DNA from: Burkholderiales bacterium PBB1
Lineage (GTDB): Bacteria > Pseudomonadota > Gammaproteobacteria > Burkholderiales > Burkholderiaceae_C
Direction: 5' to 3'
Assembly: GCA_002255905.1 (NCBI GenBank)
Contig: NKIN01000001.1
Span: 682,001-746,000, forward strand
Length of the DNA: 64,000 nucleotides
Part shown: piece after piece, positions 53,865 to 62,972 of the stretch
Position numbering within the stretch: the first letter of the stretch is position 1
How the letters are laid out: every line of letters begins with the position of its first letter
Notes under the pieces: generated by a model
What the model saw: the letters and a program-made list of their open reading frames with translations, nothing else
Database searches by the model: none
Told to the model about the DNA's origin: nothing
Program-made: the position numbers and the translations under genes

Positions 53865-55580
53865 TCAGACCGTCGGTGGCGAGGCGAATCGGAACCCTCC
53901 GCTGCCCTCGGCCTTGACGGCGTACATCGCGTGATCGGCGGTGGCCAGCAACTCGCTGACGCTCTGCCCGTCCTGCGGGTAGCGGCTGATGCCGATGCTG
54001 GCGCCGACCTTCATCTCGACACCGAACACGTCGATCGGCAGGTTGATGCCGGTGAGCATTTTTTCAGCCACGGCGATCAACTGCGGATGCGTGGTCGATG
54101 CGCCCAGCATCACCACGAACTCATCGCCGCCGATGCGCGCCACCGTGTCGCCTTCGCGCATCATGGCCAGCAGGCGCTGAGCCACTGCCTTCAGCACCAG
54201 ATCTCCGGTGTCGTGACCGTAGCGGTCGTTGATGTCCTTGAAATCATCGAGGTCGATGAACAGCACGCTGATCTCGCCGCCGTAGCGGCGCGCGTGGATC
54301 ATCGCCTTTTCGAGCTGCGACACGAACAGGCGGCGGTTCGGCAGGCCGGTCAGCACGTCGTGCAGCGCCATGTGCTCCAGCGCCTGCTGGTTGTTCTGCA
54401 GCTGCGACAGGTTGTGGTTGATCTGCTGCTGCATCTGCTGGAGGCTGCGTGCCAGTGCGCCGATCTCGTCATGTCGCTCGACGGGCAGATCGCCTGAAGG
54501 CTGGCCGTTGGCGAAATTGGCGGCCGCGGCGCTCATCGCGTTGATGGGCTGTGTGAAGGCGCGGGCCAGCATCGCCGCCAGGACCAGGCACCCCAGACAC
54601 AGCCCGAGCACCAGCTGCAAGATGGTCACGCCGAGCCGATGCGCCTGCGCGACGACCACCGCCAGCGGCTGCGCCAGGCCCAGCACCAGGCGCTGTTCGT
54701 GCGACGGCACGTCGATCGGCTGCCCGATGAATGCAGCCACCACCGGCTCGCTGCCCAAGGCGTTGTCGTTGGCGTCGAAAACCACATGCTCGCGCTTGCC
54801 TTGAACGATGTCGCGCGTCAACGGGAACTCTTCGTCGATCAGCATGCGCCGCCCCCGGTCGAAGCCGAAGGTGCGGGTCGGGTCCGGGTGGATCAGGATG
54901 TCGCCATCGTCGTTGGCAAGAAACAGCTTGAAGTTCGCGGGCAGGTCGGCGGCCAGCAGCGCGAACATGCCGTTCAGGTCGACGTTGATCACCACCACGC
55001 CCACCGCAGTGCCCAGGCCATCGATGACGGGTGTGGCCAGTTGCAAGGCAGGCTGGTCCAGCCCGGCGTAGGTGCCGCGTTCGTGATTGACCGTGATTTC
55101 CGACAGGTAGAACTCGCCTGCCTTCAGCATCAAGGTCTCGGCGACGTACGGGTAGTGGCCTTTCTCCTGCAGATCGTCACCGAGTACCTCGACAGGCAGG
55201 TCGCCTTGTCGATCGACACGCACCCGTTCCAGGCCATGGTCGCTGGCCGAAATCAGTCGAATCTGGAAGTACGACGGGTTGGCCGACATCATCCGCTCGA
55301 ACAGCGTGGCGAGCTGCCTGGCCTGCGCGACGTCGGCACGCTGCAGCACGGCCAGCGCACCAGGCAAACGGGCGAGCACTTCGAGGTTGCGGGTGATTTC
55401 CTGGCGCGACAACGTGATGCGCCTCGCCAGCACCTGGGTCGAGGTCAGCAGCCGCTCCTGCGCCGACTCCACCAGCAGCTGCCGGCTGGTCTGGTACGCA
55501 TACAGCCCGGTCAGGCCGGAGGCGAGCACGCCAACGGCCGCCAGCAGCAGAGCGAGCTTGCGGGCGATGCCCAGCTTCAC
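53865..55580 (-). CDS. Membrane diguanylate cyclase with dCACHE-type sensor
   Basis: The 571-residue protein makes c-di-GMP in response to a periplasmic signal. It has an N-terminal transmembrane helix (about 8-28), a large periplasmic double-CACHE/PDC-like sensor (about 40-300), a second helix, a HAMP domain and a C-terminal GGDEF domain. The catalytic motif is intact (IGGDEFVVML, GGDEF at 484-488) and an inhibitory-site RxxD (REGD) stands five residues before it. The GTG start overlaps the stop of the upstream substrate-binding gene (GTGA). No EAL domain is present. Confidence 0.92.
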   Translation of the reverse strand: MKLGIARKLALLLAAVGVLASGLTGLYAYQTSRQLLVESAQERLLTSTQVLARRITLSRQEITRNLEVLARLPGALAVLQRADVAQARQLATLFERMMSANPSYFQIRLISASDHGLERVRVDRQGDLPVEVLGDDLQEKGHYPYVAETLMLKAGEFYLSEITVNHERGTYAGLDQPALQLATPVIDGLGTAVGVVVINVDLNGMFALLAADLPANFKLFLANDDGDILIHPDPTRTFGFDRGRRMLIDEEFPLTRDIVQGKREHVVFDANDNALGSEPVVAAFIGQPIDVPSHEQRLVLGLAQPLAVVVAQAHRLGVTILQLVLGLCLGCLVLAAMLARAFTQPINAMSAAAANFANGQPSGDLPVERHDEIGALARSLQQMQQQINHNLSQLQNNQQALEHMALHDVLTGLPNRRLFVSQLEKAMIHARRYGGEISVLFIDLDDFKDINDRYGHDTGDLVLKAVAQRLLAMMREGDTVARIGGDEFVVMLGASTTHPQLIAVAEKMLTGINLPIDVFGVEMKVGASIGISRYPQDGQSVSELLATADHAMYAVKAEGSGGFRFASPPTV

Positions 55581-56629
55581 GATGCCAATACCTTGCTCGC
55601 GCGATCGCCCGACACGATGCGGCTCCACAGCTGGTTGCGGTGTTCTTCGCTTTCCACCGGTTGAAGCCACCTCAGCATGTCATTGGTCGCGTCGTCCGGC
55701 TCGGGGGAGGTGGTGTTGCTCAGGCCCTGGCGGCTCGTCAGCACCTGACCGGGCTCGTTTTCCAGCAAATAGTTGATCCAGGCCGTGGCGAGGTTCAGGT
55801 TGCGCGCACTGCGCGTGATGACCCAGCAGTCCAGCCAGGCCAGCGCGCCTTCCTTGGGCAGCGCGTAGCCCACATTCAGCCCGGCGGCCTTGCACAGTTG
55901 CAGCTGCTGCTTGCCGAAATTGGCAAACATCAGCGCGGCCTGTCGGTGCTTGAACAATTCGACGGATTCATCGGGTCGGGTGTAGAAGCCGGTGACGTTG
56001 CGGCGCAGGGCAATCAGGCGATCGACCATGCGCGGCCAATCCCGGTCGTCCAGCCTGAATGGCGACTTCAGCCCGAGTGACAGGGCGGCCAGCGAGAAAT
56101 TGTGCGTGCCGCCGTTGTAGGCGACCACCTTGCCGCGGTAACGCTCGTCCCACAAGGCAGACAGCGAATCCGGCGCCTTGGGCACCTGCCTTCGGTCGTA
56201 GATCAGCCCCATCTCGGAGTAGGTGTACGGAATGGCATAGGCGACCCCATCGTGAACGATGCCCGGGATCGATTTCAAATTGCGGAACCGCGCTCGCTGA
56301 CGCGCGAGGTTCGGCAAGGTCTCGGTGGCGATGCCGACCACCAGGCCCTTGCGGATGTATCGCTGCAGCTCGGCGGTGTTGACTGCAAAGACGTCGAAGT
56401 CCTGCGCGCCGTTGGCGATGATCTTGTTCCACAGGTCCAGATCGGAATCGATGACCGTGACCTCCACCCGGCTGCCATGACGCCGCTCAAAGGTTTGAAC
56501 GATGTCGGGATCGGCGTAACCGGGCCAAGCCAGCACGCGCAGGGTGTCGCCAGCCGCTCGCGCGTAACTTGCGGCGCTCGCCGCCAGGGCGCCGATGCAG
56601 AACTGCCGGCGATCAGGGTGCAGGAACAT
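55577..56629 (-). CDS. Periplasmic polyamine-type (PotD/NspS-like) binding protein
   Basis: The 350-residue protein resembles spermidine/putrescine-binding proteins of ABC importers: LRVLAWPGYADPDIVQTFERRHG near the start, DFDVFAVNTAELQRYI and the conserved YAIPYTYSEMGLIYDRRQVP. The N terminus has a twin-arginine-like signal (DRRQFCIGALAASAAS). No ABC permease or ATPase genes are adjacent. Instead the gene overlaps a membrane GGDEF gene by 4 bases, which suggests a sensor partner like NspS with MbaA in Vibrio rather than uptake. The ligand is unproven. Confidence 0.85.
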   Translation of the reverse strand: MFLHPDRRQFCIGALAASAASYARAAGDTLRVLAWPGYADPDIVQTFERRHGSRVEVTVIDSDLDLWNKIIANGAQDFDVFAVNTAELQRYIRKGLVVGIATETLPNLARQRARFRNLKSIPGIVHDGVAYAIPYTYSEMGLIYDRRQVPKAPDSLSALWDERYRGKVVAYNGGTHNFSLAALSLGLKSPFRLDDRDWPRMVDRLIALRRNVTGFYTRPDESVELFKHRQAALMFANFGKQQLQLCKAAGLNVGYALPKEGALAWLDCWVITRSARNLNLATAWINYLLENEPGQVLTSRQGLSNTTSPEPDDATNDMLRWLQPVESEEHRNQLWSRIVSGDRASKVLAS

Positions 56630-56979: not shown

Positions 56980-58863
56980 TCAGTACGACATCGCGAGGCT
57001 GTAGTTGCCGGCATTGCCGGTACTGCGCATCACCCGCAGCGCGAGCGTGACGGGGACCGTTCCACCGTTGGTCAGCGCCACCCGTTGCTGCCGACCATTG
57101 ACCCCAGGCACCATCAGCAGCTGCTGACCATTGCTGCGGTAGATGACCAGACCGAAGCCCGAGGTGGACCCTGCCGTCAGCGTGACCGTCACCGTCTTGC
57201 CGGCGGCAACGGCGAACTGGTAGAAATCGGTGTCGATGGTGCTGCTGAGCGAGCCGGAAACGAGGCTCGGCAGGGCGCTGATCTTCTGAGCGGCGGCCAG
57301 CGTGTTGTTGGGTTCAGCCTCTTTCACCTGTGTCACGCTGGGTGTCGGGGCAGGCGCAGGTGTGGGAGCGGGTGTTGGCGTCGGTGTGGGTGTGGGTGTG
57401 GGTGTGGGTGTCGGCGCGGGGGCGGTTGTCGTCGTTCCCTTGGCAGCCAGTGCGGCCACCACGGCGGCGTTCGCGTCGACGATGCCCGTGCCGCATCCCG
57501 TGCATGCCACCGGGAAAGCCCGTGCGGTGGACTTCAGCAGCGACGCGATCTGGTCGGGCGTCAAGGCGGGGTTCGCCGACAGCATCAGCGCCGCCACGCC
57601 GCTCACCACGGGTGTGGCCATCGAGGTGCCCATGTACGACGCGTAGCTGTCGGCCCCTGGCGTGGTCGTGCCGGCGTTCAGCGTGGACAACATGCCCGCG
57701 CCCGAATCGCCGCCGGGCGCTGCCAGCGCGACGTTGGTTCCGAAGTTGGAATACGACGCCTTGCCACCCGCCTTGCTGGTCGCGGCCACCGCGATGACGC
57801 CGCTGCAGTTGGCAGGTGAACTGCCGGTCGCGTTCGTGTTCGAGTTGCCGGCCGCGACGATGACCGAAGCTCCCCGTGCACGTGCTGCGTTGACGGCGTT
57901 CTGCGAGGTGATGTCGCAGGCGCCGCTGCCACCCAGTGACAGGTTGATCACCTTGGCCGGAGTCGGGTTCTGTGGCAAGCCGGTCACCGTACCGCCAGCC
58001 GCCCACACGATCGCATCCGCAATGTCCGAGGTGTAGCCGCCGCAACGGCCCAGTGCACGCAACGGCAGGATGCGTGCACCAAAAGCCACGCCGGTCACGC
58101 CGATGCCGTTGCCGCCCGCCGCGGCAGCCAGCCCCGCCACATGGGTGCCGTGCCAGGAGCTGTTGCGCGCGGCAGAGCCCGTGCCGCATGCGCCAGCCGG
58201 GGCATAGTCGCCAGGGTCGGTGGCGTCGGCATCGCGGCCTCCGCCGTCGACCGAGATCGCCGGGTTGACGATGAAGTCATAGCCCGGCAGCAGGTTGGCG
58301 GTCAGATCGGCATGCGGGCGCACGCCGGTGTCGATGACGGCAATCGTCACGCCGGCGCCCGTGGCGCGGTTCCACGCGTCTGGCGCGCCGATGCCACCGG
58401 TGGCATCCGAGAGCGCCCATTGCTGCGGGAACAGGGTGTCGTTGGGCACGTACATCGGCTGCAGGATGCGGTCGGGCTCGACGTACTCGATGGATGAGTC
58501 CCCGCTGCGCAGGCTCTGCATCAGGTTGCTGAGTTCGTCGCGGTTCATGCGCCGGCTGATCTGCATCACCTGGCTGCCGTTGTGCATCCGCCGCAGCGTC
58601 GAGACGCGCACGCCCTGCCGATTACCCGCCACCGTGATCGCGTTGCGCGAGCGCGCCGACAGCACATTGGTGCTGCCGTCGCGGTACTTCACGATCAGGC
58701 GATCGGTGGTCGTCAGCGATTCAGCAGACACCAGCCCAGCCGAGGGCGGCGTGGCGAACCGGGGCGCCTCGGGTCGGCTCGACCATGCTTGCGCGGGGGG
58801 GGTGAAGATGGCCACCGAGGTCGCCAGGACCAAGGGTGTCACGAAAACTCGGTGCAATTTCAT
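56980..58863 (-). CDS. Secreted S8 (subtilisin-like) serine protease with PPC domain
   Basis: The 627-residue protein has a Sec signal peptide (about 1-26) and a pro-region. The S8 catalytic domain carries triad residues Asp178 (IAVIDTGVRPH), His238 (SSWHGTHVAG) and Ser414 (GTSMATPVVSG), with oxyanion Asn340 (AAGNSN). A Thr-Pro/Ala-Pro linker follows at about 477-510, then a C-terminal PPC domain that often aids secretion (EAEPNNTLAAAQKI, DTDFYQFAV). The ATG at 58863 lies just behind a c-di-GMP riboswitch. It is presumably an exported protease. Confidence 0.93.
   Translation of the reverse strand: MKLHRVFVTPLVLATSVAIFTPPAQAWSSRPEAPRFATPPSAGLVSAESLTTTDRLIVKYRDGSTNVLSARSRNAITVAGNRQGVRVSTLRRMHNGSQVMQISRRMNRDELSNLMQSLRSGDSSIEYVEPDRILQPMYVPNDTLFPQQWALSDATGGIGAPDAWNRATGAGVTIAVIDTGVRPHADLTANLLPGYDFIVNPAISVDGGGRDADATDPGDYAPAGACGTGSAARNSSWHGTHVAGLAAAAGGNGIGVTGVAFGARILPLRALGRCGGYTSDIADAIVWAAGGTVTGLPQNPTPAKVINLSLGGSGACDITSQNAVNAARARGASVIVAAGNSNTNATGSSPANCSGVIAVAATSKAGGKASYSNFGTNVALAAPGGDSGAGMLSTLNAGTTTPGADSYASYMGTSMATPVVSGVAALMLSANPALTPDQIASLLKSTARAFPVACTGCGTGIVDANAAVVAALAAKGTTTTAPAPTPTPTPTPTPTPTPAPTPAPAPTPSVTQVKEAEPNNTLAAAQKISALPSLVSGSLSSTIDTDFYQFAVAAGKTVTVTLTAGSTSGFGLVIYRSNGQQLLMVPGVNGRQQRVALTNGGTVPVTLALRVMRSTGNAGNYSLAMSY
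57383..57411 (+). repeat. (GGTGTG)n tandem repeat coding the Thr-Pro linker
   Basis: Four perfect GGTGTG units plus a partial fifth run through the linker of the S8 protease. On the coding strand they read as alternating Thr-Pro codons. The array can change length by slippage in steps of two residues without a frameshift. Confidence 0.85.
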
Positions 58864-58869
58864 CGGCTG

Positions 58870-58907
58870 CCTCGTTGAGTCCGAGGCCAACCCGTGGAGC
58901 GGGTTGG
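58870..58907 (-). promoter_or_regulatory. Expression platform between c-di-GMP aptamer and S8 protease start
   Basis: On the minus strand two hairpins follow the aptamer: an 8-bp stem CCAACCCG-N5-CGGGTTGG (plus 58887-58907) and CCTCG-N7-CGAGG (plus 58870-58886). The second arm, CGAGG, is the likely ribosome site, 6 bases from the ATG. Pairing would hide it, so control of translation initiation is suggested. The first stem shares bases with the aptamer's 3' side. Confidence 0.65.
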
Positions 58908-58990
58908 CAGCCCCGCTACCGTGGCGCTGTGCGCTGTAGGCCGGAGGCTTTGCGTCCCATGCTTTCGCATGGTTTGCGGGAAATACCGTC
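58904..58990 (-). ncRNA. Cyclic-di-GMP-I (GEMM-I) riboswitch aptamer
   Basis: On the minus strand the leader of the S8 protease gene contains the GEMM-I consensus in order: CGCAAACC; a GNRA-capped hairpin (CATGCGAAAGCATG); GGGACGCAAAGCCTCCGG; CCTA; then GGTAGCGGGGCTGCC. These elements are the conserved core of class I c-di-GMP riboswitches, including the tetraloop (GAAA) and its receptor region (CCTA...GG). The aptamer ends only 40 bases from the start codon. Confidence 0.93.
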
Positions 58991-59136
58991 GACAGGTTAA
59001 TCGCACCGAGTGTGCCCAGCCAGGGTGCGGACCTGCCGATCACGGCCCGAGCGAGACATCCTGCTCGAATCGTCCACGCCGGCGTGCACCTCCGATGCCG
59101 CATTGCGTTGTTTTCGCACCCTGCACAATCTCGCCC

Positions 59137-61696: not shown

Positions 61697-61871
61697 CCGC
61701 TCGATCGCTGCCACCCCCACTCTGCGCCCCGGAAAGCACCCGGTTTTGCCCGCATTCGGATCGACTGCAGCGGGGGCTCGCCGCTAACATCGGAGCCGAG
61801 TTCCACGAGCGTCGCATGACACCTCATCCACCCGCTGCCGCTTGTTCCGGCTTACGACGGAGCACCTGCCG

Positions 61872-62972
61872 ATGACGGCACTGCTCCCCGGACTGTCTGG
61901 CAGTGAGGCGACGCTCTCTGCTGACACCGCCGCGCCATTTGCCCGTCGCCGCAGCGACGCCGCACAGTTGCTCAACCCGGGCGCAACGCCGACGATTCCT
62001 GCCGCAGCGCCCGTCGTGGTGCCTACCTTGTCGCTGCTGCTCATCGATGACGACCCAGGCATCGTGCAGGTGCTGGGCCGCATGCTTTGCGGACTGGGTC
62101 ATCTGCGCTTCGCGCTGTCGGGCCAGGATGCGCTGCGCCTGGCCCGTGAGTCGGCGCCCGATGTGGTGCTGGTCGATGCCGACATGCCCGGCATGAGCGG
62201 CTTCGAGTTCTGCGCGCTGATGAAGGCCGATCCGCAACTGGCCGAAGTGCCGGTGATCTTCGTGTCCAGCCATGGCGAGGTCGAGACCGAGGTCGCTGCC
62301 TTTGCCGCCGGCGCGGCCGACTTCATCCGCAAGCCGCCGGCCGCCGAGGTGGTGATGGTGCGGGTGCGCACACAGTTGCGCCTGAAGGCCTTGGCCGATG
62401 CATTGCGCCGCGCGGCCTTGGTGGACGGGCTCACGGGCGTCGCGAACCGGCGCCGCTTCGACGAGCAGCTGCAGAGCGAATGCGAACGCGCGTTGCGCAA
62501 CGGCGAACCGTTGTCGCTGCTGATGATCGACGTCGACCACTTCAAGCGTTACAACGACCGATACGGCCATCCCGCTGGCGATCTCTGTCTGCAGGAAGTG
62601 GCCACCGCCGTCCAAGGCCTGGTGCGCCGCCCGGCTGACCAGGTTGCTCGCTACGGCGGCGAGGAGTTCGCGATGCTGTTGCCGCAGACCGATCTGACCG
62701 GTGCGAGCCATCTGGCGGAGCGCGTTGTCGCAGCGGTGGAAGCACTGTGCATCCCGCACGAAGGTTCGCCACCGCGCCGCGTGGTCACCGTCTCGGTCGG
62801 TGTGGCATCTGCGAGCCGCATGCCCGCTGCGAATCACACCGCGCTGTCTGCCGAGGCGCTGATCCGCGCTGCCGATCAGGCGCTTTATGCCGCCAAGGCC
62901 GCCGGCCGATGCCAAAGTCAGACCTACCGGCCTCCGATCGCCACCGGTGAATTCGGCGGCGCCATCGACTGA
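61872..62972 (+). CDS. Response regulator diguanylate cyclase (REC-GGDEF)
   Basis: The 366-residue protein is a WspR/PleD-type output regulator. An N-terminal low-complexity segment of about 55 residues precedes a receiver domain with phospho-acceptor Asp102 (VLVDADMPGMSG) and a GGDEF domain with GGEEF at 262-266, in the sequence RYGGEEFAML. An RxxD inhibitory-site match (RPAD) stands five residues before it. The ATG at 61872 is preferred; a TTG 30 bases upstream also reads. The likely output is c-di-GMP. The paired sensor kinase is not in the window. Confidence 0.9.
   Translation: MTALLPGLSGSEATLSADTAAPFARRRSDAAQLLNPGATPTIPAAAPVVVPTLSLLLIDDDPGIVQVLGRMLCGLGHLRFALSGQDALRLARESAPDVVLVDADMPGMSGFEFCALMKADPQLAEVPVIFVSSHGEVETEVAAFAAGAADFIRKPPAAEVVMVRVRTQLRLKALADALRRAALVDGLTGVANRRRFDEQLQSECERALRNGEPLSLLMIDVDHFKRYNDRYGHPAGDLCLQEVATAVQGLVRRPADQVARYGGEEFAMLLPQTDLTGASHLAERVVAAVEALCIPHEGSPPRRVVTVSVGVASASRMPAANHTALSAEALIRAADQALYAAKAAGRCQSQTYRPPIATGEFGGAID

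Follow-up and report, generated by a model that had tools for sequence, protein, structure and literature searches.

A GEMM-I aptamer variant with cytosine at the selectivity position in the leaders of orthologous S8 protease genes of Burkholderiales

The protease locus and its leader

The 64-kb window considered here, by which we mean the whole stretch of DNA that was analysed, carries on its minus strand (56980–58863) a gene for an S8 subtilase of 627 residues (Pfam PF00082, E 2.4e-57), whose nearest solved relative is 5yl7 (E 1.5e-121). Reading of the protein sequence identifies a signal peptide and a Thr-Pro-rich linker, and the C-terminus is PPC-like, its PPC match of 22.6 bits lying below the gathering score of 25.9. 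The protease gene is flanked by a divergent chromate transporter gene and is followed by one for a solute-binding protein, and at about 3 kb on each side stands a gene for a GGDEF protein (53865–55670, minus strand; 61842–62972, plus strand). Upstream of the protease, the Rfam c-di-GMP-I model RF01051 matches 58988–58903 of the minus strand with 71.4 bits (gathering threshold 35; E 5.2e-12) over model positions 1–87, ending 39 bases from the protease reading frame. This is the sole Rfam match at or above the gathering threshold within the window, and the one RF01051 match in the whole 3.25 Mb genome. The original prediction had placed a class I c-di-GMP aptamer core in the minus-strand leader of the protease and had proposed the Rfam search that returns this significant match. 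Its two GGDEF proteins were likewise found, and its pairing of aptamer with protease recurs across 26 distinct leaders, whose proteases form one clade; of the protein features that it named, the S8 domain and, by reading, the Thr-Pro linker stand, and the PPC domain falls short of its gathering score.

The 26 S8-linked leaders compared throughout comprise 24 distinct sequences, obtained by merging 37 entries, together with two more (L180 and L206) from an exact-pattern search whose other 10 aptamers were repeats. P2 and P3 with the GAAA loop, A47 and C92, which mark membership in RF01051, are present in all 26. The C92 equivalent, a ligand contact of GEMM-I, lies at 58907 (minus strand) and is C in every leader, its place being set by a search word common to all 26. 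Model positions 12–18, 23–26, 31–33 and 35–40 (A47 falling within the last of these) are identical throughout, unlike positions 1–8, which vary; that the core is kept while positions 1–8 vary indicates that something still selects this fold. The RNA at 58903–58988 is thus a member of the GEMM-I sequence and structure family. It shares with Vc2-type c-di-GMP-I aptamers the P2/P3 scaffold, the GAAA tetraloop, A47, C92, the P2 closing pairs and a full-length model match, and it differs from them in that position 20 is C rather than G, A18 is missing, J1/2 is pyrimidine, P1 is not detectable, and the C92 strand is complementary to a conserved downstream arm.

Selectivity base and junction J1/2

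Selectivity among cyclic dinucleotides depends in part on the base directly 5′ of P2, which is G20 in Vc2, G11 in Cd1 and A14 in the cGAMP riboswitch (PMC9262584, PMC6274999); a G20A change allows GEMM-I to bind cGAMP (PMC7288161, PMC6274999). In the window aptamer the canonical G is absent and this base, at 58978 on the minus strand, is C (C20, in Vc2 numbering). The A20 that marks cGAMP-type (GEMM-Ib) aptamers is likewise absent, C standing at this position in the window and in 25 of the 26 S8-linked leaders after merging. To place these counts, we read 99 Burkholderiales aptamers, made up of 70 of 98 RF01051 places (including all 20 of the window's genus) and 29 from across the order, 28 of which were the best-scoring of those listed. 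C20 was present in 17 of the 18 that precede an S8 orthologue and in one of the 81 others, 80 of which have G (Fisher p 6e-17, relatedness ignored). Within the window's genus, RF01051 occurs in 14 of 15 genomes, each of the 14 having a C20 copy before the protease (two copies in G004); the five second copies in this genus are all G20. Four of these five (L142, L145, L148 and L150) precede a gene that, judged by its CxxCH motifs, resembles a di-haem cytochrome peroxidase. The sole C20 aptamer among the 99 without an S8 orthologue, L166 (G089:C1:4962507-4962596), is followed by a frame that resembles a chemoreceptor.

The change at position 20 extends into its surroundings. Junction J1/2 (58978–58983, minus strand; model positions 6–11) is pyrimidine-rich: at positions 9–11, 23 of the 26 S8-linked leaders lack purines altogether, and 61 of the 81 other aptamers have three. 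Position 9, which corresponds to A18 of Vc2, is A in 65 of those 81 and in none of the 26, and A18 is among the ligand contacts listed for Vc2 (PMC7288161). The junction in protease-linked leaders has changed from purine to pyrimidine.

Distribution and clade

RF01051 was present in 60 of 149 relatives and in 149 of 399 genomes of the order, both counts including the window's own genome. A protease search kept 80 loci, of which 19 had the aptamer directly upstream by a custom model; these belong to metagenome-assembled genomes (MAGs) of the window's kind, Inhella, Paucibacter, Piscinibacter, and Rubrivivax- and Rhizobacter-named MAGs. No aptamer was found at the other 61 loci, from Massilia, Leptothrix, Xanthomonas and others, where the best candidates were two opposite-strand matches with E values of 0.4–1. 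In a protein tree, the 26 riboswitch-linked proteases, which fall to 62% identity over their aligned part, form one clade with support of 100/100 against 20 sampled from the 61 aptamer-less loci; five of six distant proteases, each shorter than 250 residues, were dropped from this tree. Since the C20 leaders form one clade, the association of C20 with the protease counts as one event that has been retained, and not as many independent ones. The sole G20 aptamer before an S8 orthologue, L168, lies inside the C20 clade (93/91) and may represent a return to G.

Pattern searches point the same way. An exact C20 pattern gave 36 matches in 399 family genomes, of which 12 were GEMM aptamers, all 12 before an S8 orthologue; the remaining 24 were rejected as aptamers by script where a locus existed, and by eye for the six that had none. 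This pattern misses aptamers with CACACC or GGCGCAAA, for example L166 and L146. A looser pattern, run on 399 order genomes and 398 phylum genomes, recovered as aptamers only those of the window's genome (G000) and of G352, both already counted, with six of eight and four of six matches rejected by eye. One 28-base stretch among the loose C20 matches is identical in three genomes from two families of the phylum (L239, L240 and L241); its P2 stem does not pair, and it was discarded as a GEMM aptamer. At two other places, G445:C60:384-2251 and G235:C1:2668763-2670637, three GEMM-I matches lie within 2 kb, and these may be tandem riboswitches.

P1 and the 5′ end of the leader

Stem P1 is not detectable in the 26 S8-linked leaders: outward pairing in the expected register averaged 0.35 pairs, compared with 0.33 ± 0.09 in shuffled sequences. 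In 80 G20 controls the same measure gave 1.54 pairs against 0.99 ± 0.10 shuffled. At least three P1 pairs in strict register were present in two of the 26 leaders, and in only 20 of the 80 controls. A possible −10 element, TAACCT, lies at 58994–58999 (minus strand), and a TAnnnT word stands near the aptamer in most leaders, starting no more than about 18 bases upstream of it in 18 of 26, compared with at most 30 of the 80 G20 controls. Such a placement is compatible with a transcript that would start at or within J1/2. A consensus promoter scanner called no promoter in the protease leader. In the fold of the window leader, 59011–58999, upstream of the aptamer, also pairs with 58859–58847 at the start of the protease gene through 13 pairs, one of them G-U; this complementarity was noticed in the window leader alone and not in the other 25, and we set it aside as a shared element.

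Because G20 is C and both J1/2 and P1 are rewritten, c-di-GMP sensing by this RNA comes into question. The original prediction implies an ordinary c-di-GMP-I riboswitch, whose hairpin over the ribosome site would be opened or shut by c-di-GMP; on such a reading C20 would be neutral. The high Rfam score of 71.4 bits fits such a view, as do the presence of G20 in the same kind of leader (L168) and the observation that Cd1 still bound c-di-GMP after mutation of the equivalent base, the base acting as a selectivity factor and not as a hard filter (PMC9262584). Neutrality sits poorly, however, with a C that is kept in 25 of 26 leaders while positions 1–8 vary, with the loss of A at position 9 from all 26, and with a P1 that escapes detection, and we regard an unmodified riboswitch of this type as very unlikely.

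Hairpins over the ribosome site

Two hairpins separate the aptamer from the protease gene. Hairpin 1 (58887–58907, minus strand; 8 pairs) begins exactly at the C92 equivalent, so that it would compete with the ligand pocket for this base. Its pairs 3–4 are formed in all 26 leaders and its pairs 5–8 in 21–24, with compensatory exchanges among A-U, G-C, C-G and G-U, and its own arms pair at −14.6 kcal/mol, against −9.6 ± 0.63 kcal/mol when arms from different leaders are combined. Hairpin 2 (58870–58886, minus strand) follows flush with hairpin 1, and its 3′ arm contains GAGG (58873–58870), 6 nt from the ATG at 58863. The words GGCCTC and then GAGG, used as anchors, occur in all 26 leaders, GAGG facing CCTC by sequence, and the fifth pair of hairpin 2, which is unanchored, is G-C, U-A or A-U in 23. 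Anchoring by search words covers hairpin 1 pairs 1–2, hairpin 2 pairs 1–4 and the gapless junction between them, and no leader was dropped for missing words; since these anchors hold in all 26 leaders by the choice of words, the innermost evidence for the hairpins lies in the unanchored pairs. Modelled pair probabilities reach at least 0.5 in 23 of 26 leaders for hairpin 1 (low in L168, 0.00; L077, 0.11; and L180, 0.49) and in 21 of 26 for hairpin 2 (low in L025, L104, L179, L074 and L149). J1/2 was also examined as a possible partner of the 3′ arm of hairpin 1 in a new closing helix: own partners paired more strongly than swapped ones in the full set of 26 leaders (p 0.0016 to 0.015), an excess that was lost when the set was thinned to 14 representatives (p 0.065 to 0.15).

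The original prediction of two hairpins, the second placed over the ribosome site 6 bases before the ATG, agrees with this comparison; its translational mechanism does not emerge from folding. The C at position 20, the undetectable P1 and the start of hairpin 1 at C92 formed no part of that prediction. Modelled accessibility of GAGG is at or below 0.20 in 24 of the 26 leaders, with L104 (0.49) and L179 (0.33) fairly open, and its mean is 0.075 in the free RNA, 0.028 when the pocket bases are held open and 0.006 when the arm of hairpin 1 is blocked. Across the 26 leaders a clear translational switch is thus not predicted, GAGG being largely inaccessible in all the modelled states, with the pocket held open or not. 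Holding the pocket bases open lowers accessibility in 19 of 26 leaders, raises it in six and leaves it the same in one, a pattern that hints that ligand might favour tighter burial of the ribosome site. The base following GAGG is C in all 26 leaders. A possible partner for it is the last G of hairpin 1, a base otherwise matched with C92, and through this pair the length of hairpin 2 may be coupled both to hairpin 1 and to ligand binding. Two other arrangements were considered and rejected. A transcription terminator after the aptamer lacks a T run following hairpin 1 and was not called by the scanner, and an alternative hairpin that would free the ribosome site, by joining the 3′ arm of hairpin 1 to the 5′ arm of hairpin 2, was seen by eye in some leaders and is not conserved.

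These results bear on whether the pocket still functions. The P2/P3 fold might be kept as a structural or protein-binding element around a dead pocket, with hairpins 1 and 2 alone holding translation low. Half of the pocket, J1/2 and P1, is indeed rewritten, C92 is able to pair into hairpin 1, and folding yields no clear switch. Against a dead pocket, A47, the GAAA loop and the remaining core are unchanged in all 26 leaders, across proteins that fall to 62% identity and next to variable positions 1–8, and 25 of 26 have retained C20. We therefore consider loss of ligand binding unlikely.

Ligand and proposed mechanism

Cytosine and adenine at position 20 present the same donor–acceptor edge, an amino group plus a ring nitrogen, and since C20 shares these groups with A20, cGAMP or another ligand could conceivably be read. 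The C20 variant might then recognise A or another base at the alpha position, as in 3′,3′-cGAMP or an as yet undescribed cyclic dinucleotide. The ability of the G20A change to admit cGAMP (PMC7288161, PMC6274999) speaks for such a shift, as do the designation of the equivalent base as a selectivity factor (PMC9262584) and the combination of a changed selectivity base with a gene context of its own, which recalls the c-AMP-GMP variants (PMC7266159). Like the GEMM-Ib riboswitches of Geobacter, the RNA described here keeps the GEMM-I scaffold, is changed at the same selectivity base and has a distinct gene context; it differs from them in having C and not A at position 20, in the lack of a detectable P1, and in the lack of a candidate cGAMP synthase among the GGDEF loci read.

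Among the enzymes read in the window's genome, the evidence leans towards c-di-GMP. Among GGDEF proteins, Asp marks c-di-GMP makers, and Ser or Thr marks the cGAMP makers known as Hypr GGDEF (PMC6456294). The genome has 27 GGDEF matches; 21 loci could be read by motif, giving 19 distinct motifs, all with Asp and none with Ser or Thr. Six of the 27 loci gave no motif and L229 showed that of its neighbour, so that at least seven domains are unread in this count. A search of the same genome for a SMODS cyclase found none. The Asp in all motifs read and the lack of a SMODS cyclase match together favour c-di-GMP as the ligand. Also weighing against an altered ligand are the undetectable P1, a stem that is present in the cGAMP riboswitch (PMC6274999), the G20 of L168, and a base that acts as a selectivity factor rather than a hard filter (PMC9262584). 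We accordingly hold a change of ligand to be somewhat unlikely, and c-di-GMP bound in a different manner appears the most likely arrangement.

Our preferred explanation is a clade-specific GEMM-I variant that controls an orthologous secreted S8 protease, would bind c-di-GMP through C20, and would lower synthesis of the protease when ligand is bound. We put its probability at roughly 0.4, and within it we infer the ligand, the mode of binding and the direction of control. The P2/P3 scaffold, A47 and C92 are retained, while J1/2, the strand by which one ligand base is read, is rewritten by the change of G20 to C and the loss of A18. In place of a detectable P1, the C92 strand would pair into hairpin 1. 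A cyclic dinucleotide would most likely still be bound, the first candidate being c-di-GMP, whose G-alpha would pair with C20; binding might be weaker than in a canonical aptamer. Binding would withdraw C92 from hairpin 1, and the freed last G of that hairpin could then pair with the C after GAGG, lengthening hairpin 2 by one pair and burying the ribosome site more firmly. High ligand would thus mean less protease synthesis, as reported for ZmpI of Clostridioides difficile.

For a secreted protease under a class I riboswitch, this enzyme is a precedent: ZmpI (PPEP-1) of C. difficile is repressed by c-di-GMP through such a riboswitch (PMC6366702). It differs from the S8 protease described here in being a metalloprotease, an unrelated protein from an unrelated lineage. 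The retention of C20 together with the lack of a detectable P1 appears, to our knowledge, to be new; outside the 2015 c-AMP-GMP riboswitch papers and the 2017 variant survey, a literature search for a G20C riboswitch found none. A change at position 20 of the GEMM-I scaffold is what marks the cGAMP riboswitches and led to a new signalling pathway (PMC7266159, PMC6456294). Here a third base, C, has been kept there across several genera and is linked to a single gene. Either cytosine reads c-di-GMP without P1, or another cyclic dinucleotide is used, or a dead aptamer is conserved for other reasons. A bolder proposal is that the P1-less C20 GEMM-I elements form a natural riboswitch class of their own, which would serve a single secreted protease family of Sphaerotilaceae-type Burkholderiales and would either bind something other than c-di-GMP and cGAMP or read both guanines in a new way, by cytosines; this we regard as speculative and rather doubtful. 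In this group of Burkholderiales, the association points to a connection of extracellular proteolysis with second-messenger state.

Canonical GEMM-I aptamers also stand before distant S8 subtilases of the order, in eight of the 99 aptamers read, and resemble the present system in the RNA family and in the broad protease family. They differ from it in having G20 in all eight and proteases that are 32–37% identical to that of the window over the aligned part. With these eight (L003, L009, L017, L018, L033, L169, L173 and L174), the pairing of GEMM-I with S8 proteases recurs in Burkholderiales.
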